From Roseithermus sacchariphilus (lineage in GTDB: Bacteria; Bacteroidota; Rhodothermia; Rhodothermales; MEBIC09517): a DNA stretch of 64,000 nucleotides. The stretch spans positions 2,456,501 to 2,520,500 of the forward strand of contig CP030158.1 of the NCBI GenBank assembly GCA_003285105.1, in the 5' to 3' direction. The notes below the pieces were generated by a model. It searched no databases, was not told where the DNA came from, and saw nothing but the letters and a program-made list of their open reading frames with translations. Numbering within the stretch: position 1 is the stretch's first letter; the number at the start of each line of letters is the position of its first letter. Shown in pieces: positions 28,747 through 34,505 of the stretch. Position numbers and translations under genes: made by a program.

Positions 28747-30741
28747 ATGAAAAAGCTGAAGTCGACCGAGCAGGCCCTGGGCATCATGGTCACGAACCGG
28801 GCCGTCCACGCCGTGCTGCTACAGGAACAGGACGGCAGCCCGGTCGTGCTGCGCACCTTTACCCGCCAGCGGGCCACGCGCGTGGCCGGCCAGCCCAGCG
28901 CGGTGAACACGCTCACCGATGCGGGGGCGGCGTTGCCGGATACCACGGATGCGGACGTCACCATCCAGTTCGGGAGCGGTGGACCCAGCTCCAGCGATCT
29001 GTTCCTCGCCTCCGAGTTCGGGGCGCTCGACACGGAGGCGGACGACCGGGAAGGGCCGGGGCCGCGCTTGCAGGCCACCACGTTCGCCCTGGAACTGGGC
29101 GACATCCTGGCCGAGTGTCGCGACGCGGGCTACGAGAGCCCGACCCTGGCGTTCTGTGTGGGAGCCTCGGAAGTGAGCCACATGGAGCTGAAGGTCGTCG
29201 AACTGGCTCGTGGGCGGCGCAAGGCGGAGGCCCGAAAAGCCGAGGCGGCGAAGAAGGAGGGCGCCGCCGATCCGGCCGCCGAGGCCCGTCGCAAAGAGCC
29301 CGCCGGCCCGGCCCCGACCAAGGTCAGCCGAAACGACCTGCTGGACCTGCTGCGCGAGCAGCACACCGGCGAGATCAAGGACGAGTGCGTCTCCTTCATC
29401 CCGATGACGCCTTCGGAGGAAGGGTTCCTCCGCTACCTGGCGCTGTTCCCGAAGTCCACCGAGCCCGTGGCGCCCACGCTCGTGGAGATGCGGGCTCAGA
29501 AGACCCGGCGCCTGCCCCCGGTGCGGGTGCTCGACGCCGAGGTGTCGCTCTACCTGGGGCTGGCCCGGCTCGCCCTGGACGCCGCCGGGGCGCTCGAGGC
29601 CGAGACGCCGCCCAACACGCTCGTGGTGCGCGCCGGCATCGAGGACACGCAGGTGCTCTTCCTGAAAGGGGCCAGCCTGCAACACTTCGAAAGCCTCCGC
29701 TCGCTCACGGCCTACGACTCGCCGGAGACCATCTGCAGCCGCGTCCTGCTGCTGCAGGACGAATACGGCTCCGGGGAAGTGCAGCACGTCCTGCTGCTGA
29801 GTGAGGAGCACGAAGACGGGCTGATCGACAGCTTCGAGATGTTCTTCCCCGACGCCCGTGTGCAGTCGCTCTGGGATCTCCTCCCGCCGACGCCGAGCGG
29901 GCGGCTCGATGCCCGGCAGCCCCGTGGGCTCGTCGCGGCGGCGGCCGTCGCCATGCGGTTGCTCCAGGGGCGGTCCTACGACGCCGTCTTCGAGGACGTC
30001 AACATGCTGGTCGCCCGGCTCCAGGGCCGGCAGTTCCGGCTGCCCGTCACCTGGGACGTCGTGGCGATGGCGGTGGTGCTGTTCTGCACGGTGTTCTTCT
30101 TCGTGGGGCGCTATTTCAGCAATCAGCACGAAATCCAGGCCTACCGCGATCGGTTGCGGTCGATCCCGCCGGAACTGGCCGACGCCAACGTGCAGGAGCT
30201 ACAGGCCCGCATCGACAGCATGCAGGCGGCCTATGCCCAGCACATGCGGGCCCTCGAGGTGATGGACTCGCTGCTGGTGGGAAGCGATCTGTGGAGCCGC
30301 ACGCTGGACGAGGTCGTCGATCAGGCCGCCGGGGTGCGGGGCATCTGGGTATCCCGCTGGGAGCCCACCGGAAACGCCCTGGACCTGCAGGGCAACGCGA
30401 CGTCCCGGGATCGGGTGGTGAGCTTTGCCGAGCGCGTCGAAGGGGAGATCCTCTCCCTGGCCTTCTCCGAGATCCGGGACTGGCCCGTGTACACCTTCCG
30501 GATGAAGGTGCCGCTGCGACCCGGACTGCCCGAGGTGACGCGCTATCTGCGGGAACAGGCGGCCGCCGCGCATCTGGCCCGCTCCGAAGCCGGGGCCGCC
30601 GCTTCGCCCGATGCCGCCGCTTCGCCCGATGCCGCCGCTTCGCCCGATGCCGCCGCTTCGCCCGATGCCGCCGCTTCGCCCGATGCCGCCGCCTCGCCCG
30701 ATGCCCCGCTGGCCTCGGCCACCCTGGACGAGGGCGGATGA
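28747..30741 (+). CDS. PilM-PilN-like fusion protein (GspL-like)
   Basis: 664 aa. Residues 1 to about 430 are cytoplasmic and laid out like the actin-like PilM/GspL domain (ALGIMVTNRAVHAVLLQEQD at the start; a Lys/Ala/Glu-rich helix at about 155-180). A membrane segment lies at about 438-458 (VVAMAVVLFCTVFFFVG), then a coiled coil (YRDRLRSIPPELADANVQEL) and a PilN-like periplasmic fold (about 510-610). The C-terminus ends in AAASPD hexapeptides. The assignment is from topology and gene order, because sequence identity to PilM/N is not obvious. It would link the cytoplasmic motor to the periplasmic alignment complex. Confidence 0.6.
   Translation: MKKLKSTEQALGIMVTNRAVHAVLLQEQDGSPVVLRTFTRQRATRVAGQPSAVNTLTDAGAALPDTTDADVTIQFGSGGPSSSDLFLASEFGALDTEADDREGPGPRLQATTFALELGDILAECRDAGYESPTLAFCVGASEVSHMELKVVELARGRRKAEARKAEAAKKEGAADPAAEARRKEPAGPAPTKVSRNDLLDLLREQHTGEIKDECVSFIPMTPSEEGFLRYLALFPKSTEPVAPTLVEMRAQKTRRLPPVRVLDAEVSLYLGLARLALDAAGALEAETPPNTLVVRAGIEDTQVLFLKGASLQHFESLRSLTAYDSPETICSRVLLLQDEYGSGEVQHVLLLSEEHEDGLIDSFEMFFPDARVQSLWDLLPPTPSGRLDARQPRGLVAAAAVAMRLLQGRSYDAVFEDVNMLVARLQGRQFRLPVTWDVVAMAVVLFCTVFFFVGRYFSNQHEIQAYRDRLRSIPPELADANVQELQARIDSMQAAYAQHMRALEVMDSLLVGSDLWSRTLDEVVDQAAGVRGIWVSRWEPTGNALDLQGNATSRDRVVSFAERVEGEILSLAFSEIRDWPVYTFRMKVPLRPGLPEVTRYLREQAAAAHLARSEAGAAASPDAAASPDAAASPDAAASPDAAASPDAAASPDAPLASATLDEGG
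30595..30702 (+). repeat. In-frame 18-bp tandem repeat, 6 copies
   Basis: gccgccgcttcgcccgat is repeated six times, with one substitution in copy 6, and encodes AAASPD repeats in the disordered C-terminal tail of the PilM/N-like protein. Near-perfect at nucleotide level, so probably variable in length. Confidence 0.95.
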
Positions 30742-33309: not shown

Positions 33310-33317
33310 AGCTTTTC

Positions 33318-33847
33318 AGCTTTCAGCGGTCAGCTTTCAGCGGTCAGCTTTCAGCGGTCAGCTTTCAGCGGTCAGCTTTCAGCGGTCAGCTTTCAGCGGT
33401 CAGCTTTCAGCGGTCAGCTTTCAGCGGTCAGCTTTCAGCGGTCAGCTTTCAGCGGTCAGCTTTCAGCGGTCAGCTTTCAGCGGTCAGCTTTCAGCGGTCA
33501 GCTTTCAGCGGTCAGCTTTCAGCGGTCAGCTTTCAGCGGTCAGCTTTCAGCGGTCAGCTTTCAGCGGTCAGCTTTCAGCGGTCAGCTTTCAGCGGTCAGC
33601 TTTCAGCGGTCAGCTTTCAGCGGTCAGCTTTCAGCGGTCAGCTTTCAGCGGTCAGCTTTCAGCGGTCAGCTTTCAGCGGTCAGCTTTCAGCGGTCAGCTT
33701 TCAGCGGTCAGCTTTCAGCGGTCAGCTTTCAGCGGTCAGCTTTCAGCGGTCAGCTTTCAGCGGTCAGCTTTCAGCGGTCAGCTTTCAGCGGTCAGCTTTC
33801 AGCGGTCAGCTTTCAGCGGTCAGCTTTCAGCGGTCAGCTTTCAGCGG
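33318..33847. repeat. Perfect 14-bp tandem array, about 38 copies
   Basis: agctttcagcggtc is repeated 37 times plus 12 nt with no mismatch that I could find. Each unit is two heptamers (agctttc, agcggtc). It starts 8 bp after the pilQ stop. No spacers, so not CRISPR. Perfect homogeneity implies recent expansion or active homogenisation. Confidence 0.98.
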
Positions 33848-34073: not shown

Positions 34074-34129
34074 GCGGCTGGCTACTGGCTTCGGGCTGAA
34101 TGCTGACGGCTGATCGCTGAAAGCTGACC
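34074..34129. repeat. Heptamer-phased repeat tract
   Basis: gcggctg, gctactg, gcttcgg, gctgaat, gctgacg, gctgatc, gctgaaa, gctgacc: eight heptamers in unbroken phase, filling the space between the two 104-bp copies. Confidence 0.8.
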
Positions 34130-34132
34130 GCC

Positions 34133-34236
34133 CAGGGGGAAGTCCCCGCAGGGGGAAGGGGGTCAGACCCCGCCGCAACATCGCCATCGCCCGGAGGACT
34201 ACCCCTCCGTCGCTGCGCGACACCGCCCCTTCGCAA
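34133..34236. repeat. 104-bp direct repeat, copy 2
   Basis: Second copy of the 33970-34073 repeat, 103 of 104 identical. Its 3' end (ccttcgcaa) forms part of the target site of the adjacent MITE-like insertion. Confidence 0.9.
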
Positions 34237-34445
34237 ATTGACAGGGGGAGGTTTTTACAGAAAGTGGCTTTTGAGACCCATAGAGCCCTTTCGATCCGTC
34301 ATCCCCAACTCGATGGGGGATCCAGAAAACGGAGCCTGTGGACTGGCGTCCCGCCTTCTCGGAAACCGGAGGCTTCCGCAGGGACTGACGATGTCCTTTC
34401 CCTGAATGTGGTTTATGAAAACCTATCCTTGTCAACCTTCGCAAA
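34228..34445. mobile_element. MITE-like non-autonomous element with 10-bp target-site duplication
   Basis: A 198-bp element (34238-34435) is bracketed by the direct repeat ccttcgcaaa (34228-34237 and 34436-34445). Its ends are inverted: the left reads ttgacagggggaggtttt and the reverse complement of the right reads ttgacaaggataggtttt, about 19 of 26 positions matching. It is AT-richer than its surroundings and encodes nothing. Size, inverted ends and a long target duplication fit a MITE mobilised in trans, perhaps by an IS4-type transposase (that group makes duplications of about this length), but no parent element is in the window. Confidence 0.75.
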
Positions 34446-34456
34446 GGGAGGATCTG

Positions 34457-34505
34457 GCTGAGGACTACAGGCTGAGGGCTGACCGCTGACGGCTGAAAGC
34501 TCCTC
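34457..34505. repeat. Heptamer-phased repeat tract at the end of the membrane-protein gene
   Basis: gctgagg, actacag, gctgagg, gctgacc, gctgacg, gctgaaa, gctcctc: seven heptamers whose last unit overlaps the stop codon (34504-34506) of the minus-strand gene. Confidence 0.75.

Follow-up and report, generated by a model that had tools for sequence, protein, structure and literature searches.

Within the 64,000-nucleotide stretch of DNA from Roseithermus sacchariphilus that we analysed (the window), a 198-bp non-coding segment with a GC content of 53%, as against 69.5% for the window, lies between two identical decamers (CCTTCGCAAA), raising the questions of what this segment is, what moved it, and why it lies where it does. 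The original prediction was that it is a MITE, and we find it highly probable that this is so, with an IS4-family insertion sequence as its parent and a DDE transposase having moved it in trans into the tip of a hairpin. Its terminal inverted repeats are imperfect, TTGACARGGRKAGGTTTT (Table 1), and no convincing gene was found in the 198 bp. It lies between convergent genes, one on the + strand with a secretin domain (Pfam PF00263) and the other an unassigned open reading frame on the - strand; the MITE accounts for the low-GC block in this intergenic region, which is of use in annotation, and no promoter- or terminator-like sites were found around it.

Table 1. Features at the MITE locus, with positions given in the window.
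Feature	Position	Strand	Basis or remark
MITE, 198 bp, 53% GC	34238..34435	+	close copies, perfect duplications, GC count
Left target-site duplication CCTTCGCAAA	34228..34237	+	
Right target-site duplication CCTTCGCAAA	34436..34445	+	
Left terminal inverted repeat TTGACAGGGGGAGGTTTT	34238..34255	+	end scan of genome
Right terminal inverted repeat TTGACAAGGATAGGTTTT	34418..34435	-	read 34435-34418 on other strand
Internal REP-like palindrome GTCATCCCCAACTCGATGGGGGATCCAG	34298..34325	+	
Left part of the host repeat, the copy hit (114-nt local copy 2)	34123..34236	+	
Host hairpin and repeat resumed beyond the MITE (GGGAGGATCTGG)	34446..34457	+	
Uninterrupted neighbouring host-repeat copy, truncated after CCTTCGCAA	33960..34073	+	

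The single-contig 4.81-Mb genome contains six close copies of the MITE, which are 87-100% identical. A second 198-bp copy, at C1:159288, is 92% identical and lies between perfect 10-bp duplications (CCCCCGAACG), and C1:1346264-1346654 is a 391-bp version between copies of CCTTCGCATG; every copy in this genome that retains both ends is flanked by a perfect duplication (CCTTCGCAAA, CCCCCGAACG or CCTTCGCATG). Three copies (C1:1864511, C1:2382384 and C1:4032005) are truncated on the right, all stopping at element position 152, and past this point they read GACTGAC followed by AGCRACGGAGGG, which is part of the reverse-complemented host repeat described below. When the whole genome was scanned for the end with up to three mismatches, eight of the ten matches were ends of copies of the MITE, and the 20 bp inside the left terminal inverted repeat are kept in all copies. 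Among 114 genomes of the order, copies occur in one other (G019, of a different family), with 89-90% identity across 178 bp; one version measures 437 bp and has a 9-bp duplication (GGGTACCGG), another measures 456 bp and has a 10-bp one (CCTTCGCATG), and G019 also contains other MITE-type ends, some of them truncated. The long versions have their first 178 bp in common, and additional palindromic modules precede the right end. The genus and family comparison covered the window's genome only; the 90% identity of non-coding copies in two families suggests that the element may have spread across lineages recently.

The identification as a MITE is thus borne out by copies at unrelated sites, in this genome and in that of another family, whose flanks and duplications differ from those in the window, which a BLASTN-type search had been expected to return; the contrary outcome, no other copies and the element conserved with its flanks as one unit, did not occur. 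The 198-bp size (391-456 bp in the longer versions), the lack of a transposase gene, the terminal inverted repeats, the target-site duplication and the intergenic position are all as described for bacterial MITEs of 50-500 bp in the relevant parts of a review (PMC10969869), as are the truncated copies and the composites with other repeats; the present element is not named in those parts of the review, and differs in its IS4-type parent. Phage and plasmid records contain no copy of the MITE, and viral contigs contain neither a copy of its end nor a relative of the transposase. Exact matches to the end among 84,980 species genomes are isolated, fall in unrelated phyla without this group's transposase, and were taken as chance. 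A possible decayed older relative is seen at C1:4457887-4457956 and downstream, where a REP-like palindrome is accompanied by TCACAGGAGTAGGTATTCACAGATGAGACTCC, which resembles the left end of the MITE.

The parent was sought in 245 genomes of the class by a scan for the end TTGACARGGNTAGGTNTTCA, which gave eight matches in G019 and very few elsewhere. At G019 C1:2443400 the end TTGACAGGGGTAGGTATTCACA, adjoining CACCTCCCCTTGCGAAG, leads not into MITE sequence but into an open reading frame whose start lies about 60 bp in from the end. Over its first ~150 residues the encoded product is 38-43% identical (~145 residues aligned) to transposases encoded on Nostoc, Stanieria and Methylomagnum plasmids, and the reading frame then continues into unrelated sequence matching a chromosomal stretch in another genome of the same family as G019. 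This copy is therefore a truncated insertion sequence, and its transposase stops before the second D of the DDE triad. The plasmid relatives are intact, at 1293-1360 bp, and have perfect 11-bp duplications and ends CTTWCARGKGTAGG (CTTTCAAGGGTAGG or CTTACARGKGTAGG); AGAAAGTGGC, just inside the left terminal repeat of the MITE, recurs at the left end of a Nostoc insertion sequence. The plasmid-encoded proteins match Pfam DDE_Tnp_1, and the full-length relatives have a D-62-D-~100-E spacing and, in all cases, Y(2)R(3)E(6)K. Their best NCBIfam match is the IS4 model NF033591 (E 1e-25 to 1e-30), with scores of 88-105 bits that fall below the curated cut-off of 152, a naming threshold that does not define the family. 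In sequence, none of the solved structures matches the transposase relative compared with them.

Duplications are 9-11 bp long across ten insertions (9-10 bp for the MITEs and 11 bp for the plasmid relatives), and the DDE and Y(2)R(3)E(6)K motifs together with duplications of about 10 bp are hallmarks of the IS4 family (PMC2266710). We assign the MITE to this parentage because its ends match those of a transposase-encoding element with IS4-family motifs: they are identical beside the truncated transposase gene in G019 and similar on the full-length relatives. The insertion sequence with the same ends that had been predicted is present in G019 in partial form, but no intact element with exactly the ends of the MITE was seen in any genome searched, and the missing half of the sole transposase with identical ends is deduced from relatives that are only ~40% identical. 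Nor can the MITE interior be derived by deletion from any of the transposase genes found. The relatives conform to the IS4 family as delineated by De Palmenaer et al. 2008 (PMC2266710) in their single reading frame, in D(60-110)D(100-150)E and Y(2)R(3)E(6)K, in the ~1.3-kb length of the plasmid elements and in duplications of about one helix turn; however, the ends (CTTWCARGKGTAGG / TTGACARGGRTAGG) combined with 9-11 bp duplications match none of the seven subgroups exactly. The IS10 subgroup resembles the plasmid relatives in its CT ends and its length of 1200-1350 bp, but has duplications of 9 rather than 11 bp.

Mobilisation in trans, as was originally proposed, fits the window's genome because a profile search with the transposase group finds no member there. 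The sole profile hit, a weak one, was considered as a helper and rejected, since it is a frameshifted IS4-type relic with ends (AGTACACGACAAAAC) unrelated to those of the MITE; this relic (C1:3361310-3361531) adjoins another open reading frame, which may encode an IS630-type transposase. More distant IS4-type elements in two other genomes (G066 and G177) likewise have different ends. We infer that either a helper was formerly present in this lineage and is now absent, or the element arrived from another lineage.

The site of insertion lies within a host repeat of ~165 bp that has about 48 dispersed copies in the genome and ends in a hairpin, CCTCCCCTT-CGC-AAGGGGAGG. Unoccupied hairpins are abundant (CCTTCGCAAGGGGAGG); a normal repeat carries on beyond the decamer as AGGGGAGGATCTGG, and the empty form at the window locus would read CCCCTTCGCAAAGGGAGG. 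The repeat noted originally as a 104-bp unit is real, but the two local copies (Table 1) align over 114 nt ungapped, at 96% identity, and belong to the dispersed family. Nor does the duplication fall at the 3' end of the repeat, as had been stated: the decamer is the centre of the terminal hairpin in the window copy, and the MITE splits the repeat; the neighbouring copy with which it was compared is itself truncated at that point. The two local copies have in common the variants CACCGCCCCTTCG and GGAGGACTACC, which are not seen in the other copies listed, and only one of them is interrupted, so it is likely that the repeat was duplicated locally before the insertion; these data are consistent with the predicted order of events and fall short of proving it.

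The same hairpin tip was used at C1:1346264 and in the ancestor of the truncated trio, and in G019 both at C1:944787 and by the end that leads into the transposase gene, with both orientations relative to the repeat represented. By our own estimate the tips (~48 x 5 bp) amount to about 5e-5 of the 4.8-Mb genome, such that finding three of four seemingly independent events in them is far from chance, unless copies have spread with the repeat. Palindrome scores are significant for only some single sites, and the case for hairpin targeting therefore rests on recurrence; the insertion sites of the plasmid relatives are not palindromic by the measure used. What is observed is repeated insertion at one point of a dispersed palindrome, with the independence of the events partly uncertain.

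This raises the alternative that the MITE copies in host repeats all go back to a single insertion and were later carried along as the repeat spread, making tip targeting only apparent, which we consider less likely than not. Spread of this kind has clearly occurred in the trio C1:2382384, 4032005 and 1864511, which moved as one composite unit since all three have the same truncation point (GACTGAC, then AGCGACGGAGG) and the same repeat remnant; similarly, ~300 bp of repeat flank is common to C1:1346264 and G019 C1:944787, loci that are otherwise unrelated. A single insertion accounts poorly, though, for the differing orientations (the window copy and C1:1346264 lie one way, the trio and G019 C1:944787 the other), for the different subtypes (198 versus 391-456 bp) and duplications (CCTTCGCAAA versus CCTTCGCATG), and for the presence of the G019 transposase-encoding end in the same tip. 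Moreover, the two insertions outside the host repeat are both likewise in GC-rich palindromes (CCCCCGAACGGGGG and TTCCCGGGTACCGGGGAA).

Under the preferred reading, an IS4-type DDE transposase encoded elsewhere would recognise the ~20-bp TTGACARGGRTAGGTWTTCA ends, move the segment presumably by cut-and-paste, and join it to target strands about one helix turn apart, after which gap repair would leave the 10-bp duplication. The target was a hairpin tip of the type that ends the ~165-bp repeat, probably picked by the transposase itself rather than by selection or by recombination between repeats. The sequence itself shows the several sites with different perfect duplications, the ends in common with a transposase-encoding element, the family motifs of that transposase group and the repeated use of the tip.

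REP targeting by an IS4-family element, ISRm22, has already been published (Tobes and Pareja 2006, PMC1525189), and nothing known is overturned here. As with ISRm22, ISPsy8 and IS1397 (PMC1525189), a dispersed extragenic palindrome has been hit in several copies on, or close to, its axis of symmetry. ISRm22 is, in contrast, an intact insertion sequence in Sinorhizobium with 6-bp duplications (PMC1525189), whereas what has inserted here is, for the most part, a MITE without genes, flanked by duplications of 9-10 bp and in some cases lodged in palindromes that do not belong to the host repeat. The element is ordinary in kind and its landing preference mildly interesting, and it provides one more instance of an IS4-type element entering a dispersed palindrome at its axis; in addition, the ends have made it possible to identify the parent of a gene-less mobile repeat in two families belonging to a single order of bacteria. 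One may tentatively go further and propose that the element represents an IS4 subgroup not yet described, characterised by TTGACARGGRTAGG ends and duplications of 9-11 bp, that within this order a branch of the subgroup seeks out GC-rich hairpin tips, and that the MITE and host repeat then travel between genera as composite repeats, although we would give this somewhat less than an even chance.

It is very improbable that the segment is a REP/BIME-type repeat mobilised by a RAYT (REP-associated tyrosine transposase) and not a DDE-type MITE. The REP-like palindrome inside it does occur elsewhere without MITE ends, in the window's genome and in related genomes, but RAYT movement is not known to produce 10-bp target duplications or to require terminal inverted repeats, both of which are found in independent copies; the ends also match an IS4-type element, with the palindrome forming an inner module. 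Just as remote is the reading of the segment as a conserved non-coding RNA or regulatory element with flanking decamers that match by chance, for although the interior is conserved as well as the ends and the segment folds better than shuffled sequences (z -3.6 on both strands, ends paired), an Rfam search of the segment gave no family match, copies occur at unrelated sites with perfect duplications of their own, and truncated copies exist.

Several further features of these repeats are apparent. In the flank shared by C1:1346264 and G019 C1:944787 the MITE is oppositely oriented, reflecting either two insertions or an inversion between its ends. The host repeat often forms short tandem arrays of three to four copies with a spacing of 163-177 bp, as at C1:461614-462132, C1:2196545-2196895, C1:4757442-4757812 and C1:1457541-1457895. 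Directly after the secretin gene, window positions 33316-33847 consist of 38 perfect 14-bp tandem repeats (TCAGCTTTCAGCGG), and TCAGC/GGCTGA tracts related to this 14-bp repeat flank many host-repeat copies elsewhere in the genome. Finally, an 18-bp tandem repeat at 30595-30710 is in coding frame, giving approximately six AAASPD repeats at the C-terminus of a 664-aa open reading frame.
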